Shown: positions 56,907-64,000 of the stretch, one piece after another
Layout of the letters: the number at the start of each line of letters is the position of its first letter
Position numbering within the stretch: the stretch's first letter is position 1
Assembly (NCBI RefSeq): GCF_004661485.1
Contig: NZ_PQVH01000006.1
Location: 62,001-126,000 of the forward strand
Direction of reading: 5' to 3'
Length of the DNA: 64,000 bases
Source: Methylotenera oryzisoli
GTDB lineage: Bacteria > Pseudomonadota > Gammaproteobacteria > Burkholderiales > Methylophilaceae
Program-made: the position numbers and the translations under genes
The notes under the pieces: model-generated
The model's database searches: none
Seen by the model: only the letters and a program-made list of their open reading frames with translations
Told to the model about the DNA's origin: nothing

Positions 56907-58421
56907 ATGACCAAACAAATCAAAACAACTGGCGTGGTACCCATGCGCTTAACGGCAGCGATGATGGCCGGTGCAATCACTTTTCCAGCCTTAGCCGCAG
57001 ATTACATCGTTGCCGACAACCAGCAACATGACGCACAATTCGTGCATCCTCATGAATCTATCCTCGCTGAGGATGTACCATTTGGGGCGCCAAATGCTAA
57101 GCCACCGCCTTATACCATCCTGCGCTACACCGAGCGCTATTCATATCTGGCAGACCCTGCAAAACGCATAGACCCTTTTGATACCTACAAATACATTCCG
57201 TTAGCCCCTGAAAATACTGAAAGCTACCTCTCTTTCGGCGGCGAAATACGGGAGCGTTATGAGCAGTATCACAATCAAGCCTTTGGCATCAAAGGTGCAG
57301 CCAGTGACCATTATGGCTTACAGAGAATCATGCTGCATGCGGACCTGCATGCAAATGAACGCCTACGCTTCTTTGTGCAAGGCATATCCAGCGTACAGTT
57401 TGGCGGCGAGCAAAAGCTAGACGTAAACCAGAACCCGCTCGACCTACAGCAAGCCTTTGTTGACTATACCTTTGGTGACCCAAGCCCGAATGGGAACAGG
57501 CAAACCGTACGTGCCGGCAGATTCTCCATGAGTTACGGCTCTGGTAGATTGATTGCCACCCGCGCTGGGCCCAATACCCAACTGAAATTTGATGGCTTAC
57601 AGTTTATTCACTCTAACGAAGGTAATAAGAAACTGTATGCGTTTATTGCCCGCCCGGTAAAAGAAGATAGATACGAGGCCGACAGGCCAAATCAGGCGCA
57701 AAGTTTTAGTGGCATTTATGCCAGCACGCCCTTAAATGCCACATCTGGCGCCAGTGTGGATGCTTATTACCTCAACTACCGTAATGAAGAAGCGGCATAT
57801 GTGGGTGCCAAAGGGGTTGAGAACAGGCACACCTTAGGCATGCGCTGGTTTGGCAAGACTGGGCAATGGGATTACGACTGGGAAGCTGTGGCGCAATTGG
57901 GCGAAGTTGGTGACCAAGAGATTCGTGCATGGACATTTGCCAGCGATACCGGTTACACCTTTGCTGATACGGCTTGGCATCCGCGCCTAGGCATTAAAGC
58001 AGATATCGCAAGTGGTGACCGCAATAAAAAAGACGGCAAACTAGAAACGTTTAATCCACTATTTTTTAAAGCCAATTATTTCAATGATGCCGCGTTTTTC
58101 CGCCCGGCCAACTTGGCAGACATTCATGCCTCGCTACAGATGCAGCCTAGAGAAGACCTGACCATCACGTTTGGCAGTGACTTCATTTGGAAACATAGCA
58201 AGCAAGATGCAATTTACGCAACCACTGGGCGTGTGCTTTTACCCGCTACAGATGCATCCAAATATGTAGGCACTGCATTAGAAGCCGCAGCCCAATGGAA
58301 AGTTAACCGACACATGGTCGCCACCGCATCCTATGTGCATATGTACACAGGCTCACAAGTAGACAAGGCCGGTGGCGGTGACATTGATTACCTTGCTACT
58401 TGGGTTAGTTTTATTTGGTAG
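56907..58421 (+). CDS. alginate-export family outer-membrane porin
   Basis: A 504-residue barrel protein. A signal peptide ends near PALAAD; the next 100 residues include RYTERYSYLADP and YIPLAPENTESYLSFGGEIRE, typical of the AlgE-like 'alginate export' domain. Alternating aromatic strands continue to a C-terminal TWVSFIW. The name reflects fold only; members also act as general or solute-specific porins, and no alginate genes are nearby. It follows the hydrolase hairpin and may be independently transcribed. Confidence 0.85.
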   Translation: MTKQIKTTGVVPMRLTAAMMAGAITFPALAADYIVADNQQHDAQFVHPHESILAEDVPFGAPNAKPPPYTILRYTERYSYLADPAKRIDPFDTYKYIPLAPENTESYLSFGGEIRERYEQYHNQAFGIKGAASDHYGLQRIMLHADLHANERLRFFVQGISSVQFGGEQKLDVNQNPLDLQQAFVDYTFGDPSPNGNRQTVRAGRFSMSYGSGRLIATRAGPNTQLKFDGLQFIHSNEGNKKLYAFIARPVKEDRYEADRPNQAQSFSGIYASTPLNATSGASVDAYYLNYRNEEAAYVGAKGVENRHTLGMRWFGKTGQWDYDWEAVAQLGEVGDQEIRAWTFASDTGYTFADTAWHPRLGIKADIASGDRNKKDGKLETFNPLFFKANYFNDAAFFRPANLADIHASLQMQPREDLTITFGSDFIWKHSKQDAIYATTGRVLLPATDASKYVGTALEAAAQWKVNRHMVATASYVHMYTGSQVDKAGGGDIDYLATWVSFIW

Positions 58422-58564
58422 CGCCTTAAAAGTTAGCACTATTTCGCGCAAAGGCATGTTGTAGATTTAGATTCTTGCGTGCGCCTAAGGCCTTATCCAG
58501 CCGACCATTGCTGTCATGCTATACTCGCTTCAAACTTTTAACAGGCAATGTTTAAGCACTCACC

Positions 58565-59428
58565 ATGATTCAATATAACCCAAAAGACTGGATTATTTTT
58601 ATCTTCCGTTTTCACGAATCGGATACCTTTAGGCGCCTTATCCCCATGATGATATTCATAGGGCTATACGCTGGCGGCATTGCCTACTTGGAATTAGAGT
58701 TTTGGCAGCTATCCGAAAAAAGCCATGTGAAAAATATCCCGCTAATGCACACCACAGTCGGTTTTGTACTGTCATTATTATTGGCTTACAGAACTAACAC
58801 CGCCTACGAGCGGTGGTGGGAAGGCAGAAAACAATGGGGCGCCCTAGTCAACAACAGCCGCAACCTAGCGCTTAAACTTTCTGCTTATTTACCCGAAGAA
58901 AGTGACCGCAATTTCTTTAGAAAAGCCATTCCGACCTATGCATCGGTACTTTCTAAACATTTAGCCAATGAAGAAGTCAGCCAAGGACTGTTTGAAGGGC
59001 TAGATTTAGAAATCGACCACCACAAACACAGCCCCCTGCAAGTGGCTAGGCTGTTGTTTCAGAAAGCCAATGAGCTATACACCACAGGCAAAATCACAGG
59101 CGACCAGTTTTATATCATTAAAGATGAACTCCAATCGTTCACCGAAGTTTGCGGCGCATGCGAACGCATAAAAAACACACCAATCCCCTATTCTTACAGT
59201 GCATTTATTAAGAAGTTCATCTTCTTTTATGTGATGACACTGCCGTTTGGCTATGTGTTTAATTTGGGTTACTACGTGATTCCAGTGGTCGTGTTTATTT
59301 TCTATGTGCTAGCCAGCTTAGAACTGATTGCCGAAGAAATTGAAGACCCGTTTGGCGGCGATGATAACGACTTACCCACAAAAAAATTGGCTGCGAATAT
59401 CAAAAAACAGGTAGAAGAATTGCTTTAA
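58565..59428 (+). CDS. bestrophin family channel
   Basis: A 287-residue membrane protein of the bestrophin (UPF0187) family. Key stretches are YRTNTAYERWWEGRKQWG after the second helix, NTPIPYSYSAFIKKFIFFY near residue 205, and the acidic EEIEDPFGGDDNDLP near the C-terminus, which matches the cation/anion gate and Ca-like acidic cluster of bestrophins. Bacterial members form pentameric ion channels (family knowledge). No partner gene is evident. Confidence 0.9.
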   Translation: MIQYNPKDWIIFIFRFHESDTFRRLIPMMIFIGLYAGGIAYLELEFWQLSEKSHVKNIPLMHTTVGFVLSLLLAYRTNTAYERWWEGRKQWGALVNNSRNLALKLSAYLPEESDRNFFRKAIPTYASVLSKHLANEEVSQGLFEGLDLEIDHHKHSPLQVARLLFQKANELYTTGKITGDQFYIIKDELQSFTEVCGACERIKNTPIPYSYSAFIKKFIFFYVMTLPFGYVFNLGYYVIPVVVFIFYVLASLELIAEEIEDPFGGDDNDLPTKKLAANIKKQVEELL

Positions 59429-59468
59429 CAATCAATAGCCCACCCTACTTGGCTGCTCAGGTTCAACC

Positions 59469-59990
59469 TCAATCATGCATAGCGTGCGCAGTACCGATGG
59501 CTGTACGCCAGGCCATCACTTTTTGCTCAAACGATAGAGCTGCATGTGCCGGGCTGGTTGATGGTAAGCGCATATAGTGGATAGCAGTATGCTTGCATGT
59601 GGGTAATACGTGCTTTTGATAACACTTTGCTGCTGCAGCACCGTTGAAACACACCCTTGTAATATGCGGGTGCTGCGCTAGAAACGCATTAAAGTCATTC
59701 ACTTCGATTGAGTCGTTTTTAATCGCGGAATCCAGACTACCTTCACGGTAACATGAATGCAAAACATCCCATAATGCAATACCAGCAAGCGTCAGTGCGG
59801 TAACACGTTGCGCATAAGGCGCCTGCGGATCAAACCCAATAAGCTCCCCCATTATCTTCCAAAACGTATTGCGCGTATGCGCATAATATTGCCCAGCCTT
59901 AAGTGATGCCTCCCCAGGCATGCTGCCAAGTATCAGTATGCGTGCAGAGTTATTGGCTATCGGCTCAAAACTTACAATACGAGCGCTCAT
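59469..59990 (-). CDS. hypoxanthine/uracil-DNA glycosylase (UDG family 6-like)
   Basis: A base-excision glycosylase of about 173 residues. It has ILILGSMPGEASLKAGQYYAH near residue 16 (motif A, GSMPG) and LPSTSPAHA near the C-terminus (motif B with SPA). The GSMPG form with Ser-Pro-Ala resembles the hypoxanthine-DNA glycosylases (family 6) acting on deoxyinosine. I start at ATG 59990 (MSARIV), where GGATGAG lies just upstream; 59999 is possible. It stands alone. Confidence 0.85.
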   Translation of the reverse strand: MSARIVSFEPIANNSARILILGSMPGEASLKAGQYYAHTRNTFWKIMGELIGFDPQAPYAQRVTALTLAGIALWDVLHSCYREGSLDSAIKNDSIEVNDFNAFLAQHPHITRVCFNGAAAAKCYQKHVLPTCKHTAIHYMRLPSTSPAHAALSFEQKVMAWRTAIGTAHAMHD

Positions 59991-60157
59991 GGTACTCATC
60001 CGTGAAATAAAACAAGGGTATGCTAGCACCAATGGTGAAAACATTAGCGCGTAAAACTTGCGTCTAAGAAATGAGAAAAGCCGCTAATGAGCGGCTTAAC
60101 ATGCGTTGTTTTATTCATAACGCCGTTGAGAAAAAGCAACCGTTAATACCCACCTCG

Positions 60158-60493
60158 TTAGCGGTAGCCACCGTCATGATCATGGTCTCTATCCTTGTAT
60201 CTATCTCTGTCACCATCTCGGTCTCTGCCATCACCACCGCGACCTCTATATCTGATTTCTTTAGGGTAATGGCTGCGAGGTAAGTCTAGCCAAGGCCCTG
60301 ATCGTGAATGTGAATAACGCCAGTAGTGATTATCGTAATAATAGTAATACCCTTGTTGATAATAATAAGGCTCTGCACCAAACTCCACAACAACAGGCAA
60401 AGCCGGCGCTACAACAACCCTATCTGCGGGAGTAACCACGCAACCACCTAAGAGCAAAACTACAAGTGGTAAAACCATACGCATTTTGGACAT
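60158..60493 (-). CDS. small lipoprotein with RD-rich tail
   Basis: A 111-residue lipoprotein: hydrophobic residues 7-16 end in the lipobox LLGGC (Cys18). The middle is Tyr-rich (YYYQQGYYYYYDNHYW), with the WRYSHSRSGPW pattern of small periplasmic YXW-type proteins, and the C-terminus is a low-complexity run of Arg/Asp/Gly repeats. AAGGAGA lies seven bases before the ATG. Function unknown; a metal- or polyanion-binding tail is possible. An opposite-strand ORF here is a by-product of the repeats. Confidence 0.7.
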   Translation of the reverse strand: MSKMRMVLPLVVLLLGGCVVTPADRVVVAPALPVVVEFGAEPYYYQQGYYYYYDNHYWRYSHSRSGPWLDLPRSHYPKEIRYRGRGGDGRDRDGDRDRYKDRDHDHDGGYR

Positions 60494-60732
60494 TTAACGT
60501 CTCCTTTCGGGCGAGGCATCAAAATCCATCATTACTCACCATTCGCCCTAACAAGCCTGCAAAACTAAAACCACATCTAACACATTGCTATTACAGCCTT
60601 TAGATTCCCTACTTAATAATCTATTTGAATGCCTAAACGGGAGATAGTTTCTTACAATAAAGAATGCGATTCAGAGTATGATTCGCTTAATATTGGTGCA
60701 ATTGTGGCGAAAGCGTTTTAATTAGGGGTGGT

Positions 60733-62634
60733 ATGGGACAAGCTAAATACAGAGGCTCGCATCAGCAGCGAATAGTTCAAGCAAATCAGCGTTTGGCAAG
60801 TGAAGTTAAATCAGCCAAGGATTCAGTGCTTAAAAAAAATAATACTGATGAAATTAGAAACAAAATGGCACAAGTAACAGTAGAACAATTCGCAGGCGAA
60901 TTAAGGTTGCCAACAGAGTTATTATTAGAGCAACTAAAAAATGCTGGGATAAACAAAGTTGCTGATGATCAAATAAGTGAAGCTGATAAAACGGCATTGC
61001 TAGTCCACTTGCGTAAAGAGCACGGTACGATTGCGCCTAAAAGTAAAATTATGCTCACACGTAAGTCCAGCACGGAAATTAACAAGGCAGGCAATACGGT
61101 TCGGGCACGTACTATTCAAGTTGAAGTGCAAAAAAAACGTGTTTTAGAACCTAATAATAATTCTGTAGATATAGAGCCGCATGTATCTCGCAAAGGTTTT
61201 CTAAAAATTCCAAGGCTTCACTTGGAAAATTTAGGACGTTTTCAAGACTTGCGGATTGATTTTGCATTAAATTCAAATGTAACCGTATTTGTTGGTAGAA
61301 ATGGTGCAGGCAAAACATCAATCCTTAAAGCCTTAGCAACTTCATTGAGTTGGTTTGTGGCTAGACTGCGTAGAGAAAATGGTAATGGAAGCCCAATTCC
61401 TGAAATTGTAATTTTTAATGGGATGCCTTCAGCAAATATTGACGTGACTTTATTTGATTATTCAAATGACACTTTTAAATCAGACGCAGCAGTTGGAGCA
61501 TACAGTTGGAGTTTGGCTAAAGTACGTGCTGGTAAAAAGGGAAGTCATGTAAGTCAATTGAACGATCTAACTAGATTGACAGATGAATATCGACACACCT
61601 TTACAAAAGATAGCAATGCAAGCTTACCTTTAATTGCTTTTTATTCTACAGAGCGCGTTGTCTTAGATATTCCACTCAAAATTAAAGGGAAGCATAGCTT
61701 CCTACAATTAGATGGATATCATAACTCACTAAATCAAGGTGTTGATTTCCGTACATTTTTCGAGTGGTTTCGTGAACGTGAGGATGCGGAAAATGAATCA
61801 GTAGTTTCACAGAAGGCTATTGATGACTTACTTGGCGTTTTTGAAAACAACCCAAATATCCCACCTAACATACAACAAGAGCTTTGGGGTACATTGAATA
61901 AGCTCAACGCAAGCTCAAAAGATAGGCAATTAACAGCAGTGCGCACCGCAATTTACAACTTCATGCCAGGGTTTAGTAAATTGATGGTGAAACGTAAACC
62001 GACATTACATATGTCTATAGAAAAAGAGAGTAAAGCGTTAAATGTGTTGCAATTATCGCAAGGCGAAAAGTCATTAATGGCTTTGGTGGGAGATATTGCT
62101 AGGCGATTGGCAATGATGAACCCAGCACTAGAAAACCCACTTACTGGCGGAGGAATTGTTCTAATTGATGAAATTGAGATGCATCTTCACCCAGAATGGC
62201 AACAAACAGTTGTTGGTAATTTAGAAAAAACATTTCCAAATATCCAGTTCATCATAACAACGCACAGCCCACATGTTTTGAGTAGCATTGATGCGTCTTG
62301 TATTCGTCTACTTCGCCAAGAGGATGATACAGAAACCAGTAATACAGTCACCAGTATCGAAGAAGTTCACACGCAAACTAAAGGCGTATCTAGTGCAGAT
62401 GTGCTAGCAGAAATCATGGGGGTTAACCCTGTGCCAAATGTTCCAGAAGCAAAGGCACTGTCTGCCTACCATGCCCTAATTCAGGAGAATCTACATCAAA
62501 CTGATAACGGAATGGAATTGCGCAAAAAACTTGATGCTCATTTTGGATATACCCATCCAGTAATGTTTGAATGTGAACGGATGATTCGTCTGCAAGCCTT
62601 AAAGCAGAAGTTTCCAATATCAAGCAAGGAATAA
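60733..62634 (+). CDS. ptuA: PtuA-like Septu ATPase with fused IF-2 N-terminal domain
   Basis: A 633-residue protein. After a 44-residue basic leader (MGQAKYRGSHQQR...), residues 45-138 match the start of initiation factor IF-2, from its initiator Met (MAQVTVEQFAGELRLP) through LLEQLKNAGINKVADDQ to the IF2-associated KIMLTRKS and RARTIQVEVQKKRVL. An ABC-type ATPase follows: Walker A GRNGAGKTS near 188, signature LSQGEKS, Walker B IVLIDEIEMHLHPEW and TTHSPHV. AT-rich codon use differs from the neighbours, suggesting transfer. With the HNH gene next door it is a Septu defence system; the IF-2 part is unexpected. Confidence 0.85.
   Translation: MGQAKYRGSHQQRIVQANQRLASEVKSAKDSVLKKNNTDEIRNKMAQVTVEQFAGELRLPTELLLEQLKNAGINKVADDQISEADKTALLVHLRKEHGTIAPKSKIMLTRKSSTEINKAGNTVRARTIQVEVQKKRVLEPNNNSVDIEPHVSRKGFLKIPRLHLENLGRFQDLRIDFALNSNVTVFVGRNGAGKTSILKALATSLSWFVARLRRENGNGSPIPEIVIFNGMPSANIDVTLFDYSNDTFKSDAAVGAYSWSLAKVRAGKKGSHVSQLNDLTRLTDEYRHTFTKDSNASLPLIAFYSTERVVLDIPLKIKGKHSFLQLDGYHNSLNQGVDFRTFFEWFREREDAENESVVSQKAIDDLLGVFENNPNIPPNIQQELWGTLNKLNASSKDRQLTAVRTAIYNFMPGFSKLMVKRKPTLHMSIEKESKALNVLQLSQGEKSLMALVGDIARRLAMMNPALENPLTGGGIVLIDEIEMHLHPEWQQTVVGNLEKTFPNIQFIITTHSPHVLSSIDASCIRLLRQEDDTETSNTVTSIEEVHTQTKGVSSADVLAEIMGVNPVPNVPEAKALSAYHALIQENLHQTDNGMELRKKLDAHFGYTHPVMFECERMIRLQALKQKFPISSKE
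60865..61146 (+). other. IF2_N plus IF2_assoc module inside the PtuA gene
   Basis: This segment encodes residues 45-138 of the ATPase protein and reads like the first 94 residues of betaproteobacterial IF-2 with no gap. Its first codon is ATG, as in infB, so the module looks like an in-frame capture of an infB 5' end. A second translation start at 60865 would give a protein beginning exactly as IF-2 does, but no good ribosome-binding site is seen there. Confidence 0.8.
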
Positions 62635-62638
62635 GGGG

Positions 62639-63268
62639 ATGCATAAACTTATTCGCGGTGCTGCCCCACGTTGTTTGGCGAAATTTCAGCATGGAAGAGA
62701 TAACTGGGGTAACGTTGATAGTAGTTCCAAGTCTGAAATTTGGATCGAACTAGAAACTATGCAAGGCGCGCGTTGCGCCTATTGCGAATCTGATATAAGC
62801 ATTGGTAAAAAGCATATTGAACATTTTCGGCAAAAAGGGCGAGACCCTAAAGTTACATTTGACTGGAGTAATTTGTTTGGTTCTTGTATGCGAAAAAATA
62901 GCTGTGGTAAACATAAAGACGAGATTCCACTGTATGATTCAGCAAACCTAATTAAACCAGATAATGAAGACCCAGAGATTTTTTTAGTTTTTTCGGCAGA
63001 TGGCTCCGTGCATCCGAGAGCTAACATATCCGAACAAGACTTTTTGCGTGCTAAAGAAACCATCAGGATATTCAATTTAGATGATCCACTGCAACAAATT
63101 AGGAAGAGTGCTGTTTGCGGCTACGTACAGACTGCTGAAGTGTTATATAAGCTTGCAAGTGAGCTTCCAGAGGAGAATGTTATGGAATTATTACTTGAAG
63201 AGATAAATAAAACAGCAAACTTACCATTTTGTACTGCCATCAAACACGTTCTACTGAATCAAGCCTAG
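62639..63268 (+). CDS. ptuB: PtuB-like HNH endonuclease of a Septu system
   Basis: A 209-residue nuclease. The HNH/zinc core is plain: CAYCESDI near residue 45, IEHFRQKG (the HNH His), FDWSNLFGSC and CGKHKDE. The pattern matches the PtuB/TIGR02646 family, effectors of Septu and retron-Ec78 type systems that cut nucleic acid on phage infection (family knowledge). AAGGGG abuts the ATG and the ATPase stop is four bases upstream, so the genes are coupled. AT-rich like its partner. No reverse transcriptase or retron RNA is visible. Confidence 0.88.
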   Translation: MHKLIRGAAPRCLAKFQHGRDNWGNVDSSSKSEIWIELETMQGARCAYCESDISIGKKHIEHFRQKGRDPKVTFDWSNLFGSCMRKNSCGKHKDEIPLYDSANLIKPDNEDPEIFLVFSADGSVHPRANISEQDFLRAKETIRIFNLDDPLQQIRKSAVCGYVQTAEVLYKLASELPEENVMELLLEEINKTANLPFCTAIKHVLLNQA

Positions 63269-63370
63269 GAGGAAGAGGGCTAGTGAACAGCTGTTGTAGA
63301 AATTATCTTACTGAACTCGAAGGTCTGGTAATCAACCGTTATGCTAGACATAAATAATGTCGAAACAAGA

Positions 63371-63396
63371 AAAAAAGGAGCCGAAGCTCCTTTTTT
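63371..63396. terminator. bidirectional terminator between ptuB and nrdJ
   Basis: AAAAAAGGAGC and GCTCCTTTTTT pair around CGAA, with T-runs on both strands. It serves the nrdJ-like gene leftwards and probably ptuB rightwards. Its stem is nearly the same as that at 26407-26426. GACAT/ATGTC, a smaller dyad, lies just before it. Confidence 0.85.
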
Positions 63397-63399
63397 ACT

Positions 63400-64000
63400 T
63401 TAACCGCACTTACTTTCACCACAATTCAAGCAAGTCAAACACCCATCCATAATAATGCTGGCTTTGGTGTTACATTTCTTACAAAGCTGCGCACCTTTTG
63501 GGAAGCCTTCTTCATTGACTTCTTCGCCTGATTTAGCGTGTTTTTCCAGGTATTCTGCTTTTTTCTCTTCTACCAATTTTTGTTGGTGTTCATCTAGGCC
63601 TGGCTTTTTAAGCATACCGATTTCTTGCAGGTGTTGCTCTACTACTTCGCCAATTTCTGCCACTAGGCTAGGTACAAACTTACCGCCCTTTTTGAAGTAG
63701 CCACCGCTTGGTTCGAACACGCTTTTTAGCTCTTCTACCAAGAAAGTCACGTCGCCACCTTTACGGAACACGGCTGACATCACGCGTGTTAGGGCAACAA
63801 TCCATTGAAAGTGCTCCATGTTTTTGGAGTTGATAAACACTTCAAACGGGCGGCGGTGCTCTTGTGGTGTGCCTTCGTTCATCACGATATCGTTAATGGT
63901 GATGTAAAGCGCGTGCTCGGTGACTGGTGTTTTGATTTTGTAGGTGTTGCCTACCAATTTCTCTGGGCGGCCTAACGGCTCGCCTAGCTGCACAACGTTA
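63400..64000 (-). CDS. nrdJ: class II (B12-dependent) ribonucleotide reductase, C-terminal part
   Basis: The last 199 residues of a gene that enters from the right edge; no genuine start lies in the window. After VGNTYKIKTP comes the TSCPD-type region (ALYITINDIV, RPFEVFINSKNMEHFQWIVAL, AVFRKGGDVTFLVEELKSVF), then a zinc-finger-like tail with CKKCN and CLNCGESKCG that carries the redox-active cysteines. This matches the C-terminus of adenosylcobalamin-dependent ribonucleoside-diphosphate reductase. The catalytic barrel is outside the window. Confidence 0.88.
   Translation of the reverse strand, partial: NVVQLGEPLGRPEKLVGNTYKIKTPVTEHALYITINDIVMNEGTPQEHRRPFEVFINSKNMEHFQWIVALTRVMSAVFRKGGDVTFLVEELKSVFEPSGGYFKKGGKFVPSLVAEIGEVVEQHLQEIGMLKKPGLDEHQQKLVEEKKAEYLEKHAKSGEEVNEEGFPKGAQLCKKCNTKASIIMDGCLTCLNCGESKCG

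Follow-up and report, generated by a model that had tools for sequence, protein, structure and literature searches.

The start of translation initiation factor IF-2 fused to a Septu ATPase of Methylotenera oryzisoli and to other chassis

Why would the ATPase of an anti-phage system begin with a piece of a translation factor? The question is raised by a two-gene locus of Methylotenera oryzisoli that lies in a 64,000-nucleotide stretch of contig NZ_PQVH01000006.1, the whole of which we call the window. A preliminary description read the locus as a Septu (PtuA/PtuB) pair whose ATPase carries, as residues 45-138, the start of IF-2, captured from a host infB and perhaps tethering the complex to ribosomes. 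A literature search (titles and abstracts, open-licence PMC papers) found no description of an IF-2-module fusion, and the available part of a paper with a PtuA-like ATPase operon, PMC11980606, leaves an IF-2 part unmentioned. The features of the locus are collected in Table 1.

Table 1. Features of the ptuAB locus, in window coordinates.
Feature	Position	Strand	Basis
ptuA (P0001; module + PtuA-type ABC ATPase), 633 aa	60733..62634	+	gene reading
Leader, residues 1-44, MGQAKxRGS..QR type	60733..60864	+	alignment; helix 10-44 predicted
Candidate remnant of infB 5' leader, now translated	60841..60864	+	AATACTG...AAACAAA before ATG
IF2_N, residues 45-94	60865..61014	+	Pfam
IF2_assoc, residues 103-138	61039..61146	+	Pfam
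Linker, residues 139-155, resembles that of AlbA_2 fusions	61147..61197	+	alignment
PtuA ATPase, residues 156-633	61198..62631	+	profile searches
Walker A GRNGAGKT, residues 188-195	61294..61317	+	motif
ABC signature LSQGE, residues 441-445	62053..62067	+	motif
Walker B IVLIDE, residues 475-480	62155..62172	+	motif
ptuB, HNH endonuclease, 209 aa	62639..63268	+	profile searches, motifs

The Septu assignment was borne out. PtuA matches the PADLOC profile PDLC00271 at 1.5e-141 over residues 158-625, and PtuB matches PDLC00358 at 6.9e-86 and TIGR02646 at 119.7 bits (cut-off 52.15). The motifs are intact (in PtuB, CAYC at residues 46-49, HIEHFR at 59-64 and SNLFGSC at 77-83), the ptuA stop and the ptuB start are 4 bp apart, and solved Ec78 PtuB can be aligned with residues 2-205 of the window PtuB. 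The pair forms a two-gene island whose neighbors are a small lipoprotein-like gene on the opposite strand and ribonucleotide reductase genes. GC3 is 0.27-0.33 across the leader, the IF-2 piece, ptuA and ptuB versus 0.41 in the host's own infB; together with the island arrangement, this fits the earlier suggestion, drawn from AT-rich codon use, that the two genes moved as a unit. What follows the ribonucleotide reductase gene varies among five genomes of the genus (L082, L084, L086, L088, L089), one of which (G007, L086) has there another ATPase, sharing 28% identity with PtuA across 160 residues, and the site may be an insertion hotspot.

We also considered a retron at this locus. Against the Retron Ec78 PtuA equivalog NF041760 the window PtuA scores 427.5 bits, below the curated cut-off of 500. 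There is no reverse transcriptase beside ptuAB, the genome's single RVT_1 match being on contig C13 and the locus on C12, and within 58000-64000 no Rfam family, msr-msd RNA included, scored above its gathering score. Many retron RNAs are absent from Rfam. With no reverse transcriptase in the flanks and no Rfam retron RNA found, a retron was rejected, and ptuAB is therefore a stand-alone Septu, related to Ec78-type PtuA.

Residues 45-138 proved to be the start of IF-2. When checked against profiles, as had been proposed, they gave significant matches to both IF2_N (score 28.4, cut-off 25.3) and IF2_assoc (36.0, cut-off 24). Over the whole of PtuA, Pfam otherwise finds AAA/SMC domains, and neither the G domain nor the C-terminal domains of IF-2. 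A chance match or a misread frame was rejected on the Pfam and alignment evidence. The host has a normal infB of 914 aa elsewhere in its genome, adjoining nusA. When the whole fusion was used as the query, matches were found in 50 of the 52 genomes of the genus, and in each, the window excepted, the best match was the start of IF-2. Identity between the module and the IF-2 starts of the fetched genus loci is 69-78%, and the named organisms among the listed IF-2 matches of residues 1-160 are mostly Methylotenera, two being named to class or phylum only.

The donor is a more delicate matter. Aligned with the host's own infB, the module is 71.3% identical as protein and 74.7% as DNA, and closer genus infB exist, the best reaching 78% and 80.0%; the own infB start has the second lowest DNA similarity among 26 genus infB starts (range 74.4-80.0%). 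In the 14 listed of 26 pairs, dS between the module and genus infB is 0.95-1.83 and omega 0.08-0.13, while the median omega between genus infB starts is 0.044; 11 of the 73 residues invariant across the 26 genus starts differ in the window module. In a tree from which P0123 was left out, seven Methylotenera-type modules lie inside the genus infB clade with support of 100/100. The proposed capture from a host infB thus stands as to an infB origin in the host's genus or near it, and falls as to recent copying from the host's own gene, which is rejected by the 74.7% DNA identity and a dS of about 1. With such a dS between module and infB, the capture is, on sequence divergence, old, and the IF-2 piece has been under constraint, weaker than that on infB.

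Several infB genes of the genus read AATACTGGAGCAACAAG before their ATG, resembling the stretch 5' of the Met45 codon; this likeness is suggestive of a remnant of the infB 5' leader. An internal start at residue 45 was rejected: by eye, no Shine-Dalgarno sequence precedes it, and one (AGGGG) lies directly 5' of the ptuA ATG. Very likely, ribosomes initiate at the MGQAK leader and not at the infB start downstream of it.

The leader has a life of its own. Its pattern, MGQAKxRG[ST]...R, occurs in at least 120 viral stretches. Eighty of these viral stretches were read and yielded 66 proteins longer than 60 residues, 58 of which have Ala at position 17, a position left free by the pattern; the parts behind the leader are very diverse. 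Small, otherwise unrelated proteins opening with MGQAKxRG[ST]xEQR..A were met on viral contigs (L110-L189) and at L077 and L103-L108, and the leader is reminiscent of a targeting signal. Two of six scanned MGQAK proteins weakly match phrog_35223, a PHROG family of unknown function. Two matches to the pattern in the family, both without an IF-2 part, were set aside, L075 being internal to another gene and L077 an 83-residue MGQAK protein. The leader was not found in 398 other genomes of the order, and a search of phages with one MGQAK protein gave no match. That the leader is widespread in viral proteins suggests that the module may have been assembled on a phage or plasmid.

Other PtuA-like ATPases with the module were sought with the whole PtuA as query, one of the checks proposed at the outset, and one was found, P0002 (92% identical), among the 120 relatives listed; the other 119 are 375-470 residues long and lack the module. 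Residues 1-160 as query gave 412 matches, and among the 120 listed were, next to IF-2 proteins and P0002, four proteins on one other chassis. These four, Schlafen AlbA_2 fusions, carry the complete module and are 59-63% identical over 99% of window residues 1-160. A search with the leader of an AlbA_2 fusion returned seven proteins, all module carriers, bringing the AlbA_2 kind to six (P0122-P0125, P0241, P0242) and all carriers, with the two PtuA, to eight. The full-length AlbA_2 fusions scanned have Schlafen AlbA_2 and HATPase_c_4 domains (Pfam). Among four scanned, IF2_N is above the cut-off in P0123 only, the other three reaching 18.5-22.6 bits (cut-off 25.3), and IF2_assoc is matched in none; with these counts the AlbA_2 module has drifted further than that of PtuA, and its identity rests on alignment with the window protein. 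The reading frame and both strand sequences are preserved across the eight carriers. A few exact peptide patterns found no AlbA_2 or PtuA fusions in viral contigs. The listed sequence of P0242 has 36 residues before MGQAKYRG, probably from a start codon placed too far upstream; P0168, P0169 and P0170 (391-462 residues), with IF2_N and IF2_assoc as their sole Pfam domains, are probably partial IF-2.

How did one module come to sit on two unrelated chassis? Module-less AlbA_2 relatives occur on plasmids of Cupriavidus (76.5% identical, from residue 151), Caballeronia (62.1%) and Vibrio chagasii (48.5%, near TIR-domain genes), and the Cupriavidus start aligns with the Met of HLEN-MESV in P0124. 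Module-less PtuA proteins start with M-E-I-K...N-L-G-R-F or similar (M[EKDQ][IV] in 56 of 57). Just before the AlbA_2 start the fusions read LKIKTPHLEN or similar, and the window PtuA reads LKIPRLHLEN there. In five of the six AlbA_2 fusions, which are not independent of one another, the in-register likeness to PtuA starts beats shuffles (9-121 of 5000 as high): strongly in P0125, P0242 and P0124 (9, 13 and 25) and more weakly in P0241 and P0122 (108 and 121). In P0123 it is not significant (497 of 5000). This relic of the first PtuA strand suggests that PtuA carried the module first, and the simplest reading of these sequences is that the module then passed to AlbA_2 together with PtuA's first ten codons. 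In one tree a branch supported at only 42/0 sets the eight modules apart from the rest; in two other trees the PtuA modules stand beside infB sequences, away from the AlbA_2 modules. We argue for one origin from the common leader, the linker and the PtuA-strand relic, and later gene conversion from infB is possible.

A separate case emerged when plasmids were searched with the module by tblastn. On pBPHY01 of Paraburkholderia phymatum (NC_010625.1), a 694-residue fusion begins at IF-2's Met (IF2_N 42.0 bits, IF2_assoc 51.1 bits) and continues as an AAA_15/OLD-type ATPase that resembles AriA, NsnB, Mad3 and Old in PADLOC. It has a relative on a viral contig, matched over residues 1-693 and 64% identical in the best segment, and was found in 2 of 144 Paraburkholderia genomes, at 100% and the pBPHY01 coordinates in the first and at 95% over its full length in the second. 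Plasmid relatives in Burkholderia glumae, Croceicoccus and Rhizobium have the OLD-type chassis with an unrelated N-terminus. The Paraburkholderia and viral-contig modules group with infB of other Burkholderiales (80/95), at a fork drawn open with long branches where the two do not form one clade. As the two module groups fall in separate infB clades, the infB start has very probably been taken up at least twice by defense-type ATPases.

Among the best matches listed in 399 genomes of the order (two candidates scored per genome) there was no full-length OLD-type fusion; those matches cover no more than the IF-2 part and lie for the most part in frames as long as infB. A search of 58 genomes of another genus, run without a positive control, gave no OLD-type fusion. 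The infB-like plasmid and phage matches were inspected except for H17, H21-H23 and H26, and those rejected were H11 and H13 (ordinary infB-operon context), H25 (a complete infB beside nusA) and H14-H16, H18-H20 and H24 (annotated infB or IF-2). On another viral contig (L256, 2358-3605), a 415-residue protein ends in KFQVEVRKKRTFVKRE, the second IF2_assoc strand, plus a short tail, and the adjoining frames look transposase-like. Near the module-less OLD-type gene of the Rhizobium plasmid (L255, genes at 1-612 and 1276-2979) are genes for an 'RNA-binding domain-containing' protein, a name also borne by the Vibrio AlbA_2 protein, a DNA cytosine methyltransferase and very short patch repair.

Every pairwise comparison shows the module evolving faster than the effector. 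Between P0001 and P0002, 127 of 156 module residues are identical (leader 37/44, IF2_N 39/50, residues 95-138 37/44, linker 14/18) versus 454 of 477 in PtuA. Five AlbA_2 fusions compared pairwise share 31-38 of 44 residues in the leader, 34-45 of 51 in IF2_N and 385-433 of 472-473 in the chassis, and the P. phymatum and viral-contig proteins share 40 of 91 and 396 of 565 in module and chassis. The rates in the PtuA and AlbA_2 groups come from protein identities, and the DNA-level omega from the Paraburkholderia pair: 0.40 for module codons 1-96 (dN 0.094, dS 0.233) versus 0.074 for the chassis (dN 0.015, dS 0.202), with a Fisher p of 4e-5 for their N:S counts. The hosts' infB starts have dN 0.030 and dS 0.292 (p 0.027 versus the module, rounded counts). 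The Paraburkholderia module remains below neutrality, 20 of 33 changes being nonsynonymous versus 76.6% expected (p 0.03). The AlbA_2 fusions, like the OLD fusion of the viral contig, keep both strand sequences but have a shorter loop between them. The rapid change of the module could reflect relaxed constraint.

According to PMC12297416, the N1 domain of E. coli IF2-alpha (residues 1-50) and the next two strands (57-90), which together make up Domain I, bind NusA (KH2/AR1), with evidence from pull-down, cross-linking and tracking; the predicted interface is apparently incompatible with the antitermination form of NusA, and the authors note a lack of conservation in both the IF2 N-terminus and the NusA C-terminus. 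What was captured, residue 1 to about 95-106 of infB, is this NusA-contacting unit and little more, which would place the module on the IF2-NusA axis. The host's own NusA has both C-terminal repeats (TIGR01954 in two stretches, 117.3 bits, cut-off 48.15). Binding of Domain I to NusA is known from E. coli only, a point that counts, like the lack of conservation, against this placement. In vitro, IF2 has a part in phage Mu replication as well, with differences between its isoforms (PMC3334882). On the effector side, what is available of PMC11555353 reports that retron-Eco7 PtuAB depletes tRNA-Tyr, and that of PMC13096335 that the stand-alone Septu EcB88 cleaves the variable loop of tRNA-Tyr. For Eco4 PtuAB no tRNA loss was seen in the same part of PMC11555353, and the tRNA-Tyr output is therefore uncertain for the window pair.

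We tentatively favor, at a little short of an even chance, a module of host origin that serves the IF2-NusA axis, and so the coupling of transcription to translation, as bait or guard and triggers the effector. At rest, the module would hold the complex on NusA or another Domain I partner, or in equilibrium with it. A phage factor would then bind or remodel that partner, as an antitermination factor on NusA might, or would mistake the module for IF-2. Captured or released, the module would change the conformation of PtuA and so switch on PtuB, and the output, if like that of published PtuAB, would be tRNA-Tyr depletion or cleavage, stopping translation and phage growth. We count in support the presence of the module on two unrelated chassis and its second capture, by an OLD-type ATPase. 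Against it, a module that changes so fast is hardly a simple copy of the surface between IF2 and NusA, and PtuAB targets vary. Judging by family resemblance, the AlbA_2 and OLD-type carriers presumably also defend against phage. Somewhat doubtful, and still to be taken seriously, is the wider proposal of an integrated decoy that keeps recurring: IF-2 Domain I, captured at least twice and passed among Septu, Schlafen-type and OLD-type effectors, would sense a phage's attack on NusA or IF-2.

An unlikely but reasonable rival is a plain tether, in which the module keeps PtuAB at NusA and RNA polymerase on the nucleoid, where phage transcription would be met early, and PtuA itself senses as in module-less Septu. 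Such relatives are common for both PtuA and AlbA_2, and Domain I alone reaches the nucleoid through NusA in E. coli (PMC12297416, in part). A tether should be about as conserved as infB, yet the module outpaces both infB and the effector, which favors bait or guard. Tethering to the ribosome or an initiation complex, as first proposed, is very improbable. The parent protein is an initiation factor and some PtuAB act on tRNA (PMC11555353, PMC13096335), but earlier work cited in the available part of PMC12297416 saw no noticeable ribosome binding by Domain I, the second N domain (N2), there linked to subunit joining, is absent from the captured piece, and the unit that was captured binds NusA in E. 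coli.

Rather unlikely, too, is that the leader helix and IF2_N pack on PtuA and, with no host partner, keep PtuAB inactive or set its oligomer, replacing the RT-msDNA of retron I-A systems. Retron-Eco7 PtuAB is toxic when expressed without msDNA and RT (PMC11555353), and stand-alone PtuAB may therefore need some brake; in addition, a long helix is predicted for the leader, and in retron I-A PtuA the ATPase is preceded by roughly 48-63 residues. Against such packing, 119 of the 120 listed PtuA relatives do without a module, and one fold would have to fit three surfaces (PtuA, AlbA_2 and OLD-type). We think it improbable that the module has no role in sensing and either helps expression and solubility or is left over without doing harm. 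On this view the infB start would give good translation and folding, in keeping with the use of IF2 N-terminal tags in biotechnology; infB is highly expressed, and the accelerated change fits weak constraint. These points are set against the probable start of translation at the MGQAK leader, a frame and two strands kept on eight proteins, the low omega versus infB in the 14 listed pairs, and two captures.

Septu with an IF-2 module is a new variant, and with the AlbA_2 and OLD-type cases it makes a recurrent host-derived module of defense-type proteins. To our knowledge, how PtuAB and OLD-type ATPases recognize infection is largely open. A host piece found on three kinds of effector and taken up at least twice points at the IF2-NusA pathway. 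The module would give bacteria an example of a sensor made from a fragment of a host target and, if the decoy proposal is true, a counterpart of the integrated decoys in plant NLRs.

Among known systems, IF-2 itself shares Domain I (N1 and IF2_assoc) with residues 45-138 of the window PtuA, which carries an ATPase in place of the GTPase and C-terminal domains. Stand-alone Septu such as EcB88 has the same two genes in the same order, the same ATPase and HNH families and no adjacent RT; the window PtuA differs in an extra 155-residue N-terminal part with the IF-2 module, and the activity of the window pair is predicted from sequence. The closest curated models are the retron I-A effectors (Ec78/Eco7; PtuA NF041760, PtuB NF041761), and the solved PtuB sequences closest to that of the window are of retron I-A type (9vh1, 9l7p and others); retron I-A has an RT and msr-msd, whereas the window locus has neither an RT nor a known msr-msd. 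The Schlafen AlbA_2 and HATPase_c_4 fusions have the leader, IF-2 piece and linker in common with the window PtuA, on an unrelated chassis and with an 11-residue loop missing. The P. phymatum OLD/AriA/NsnB-like ATPase, Toprim-type at its C-terminus by motif and PADLOC similarity, likewise bears an IF-2 start on a defense-type ATPase, but as a separate capture and without the MGQAK leader.
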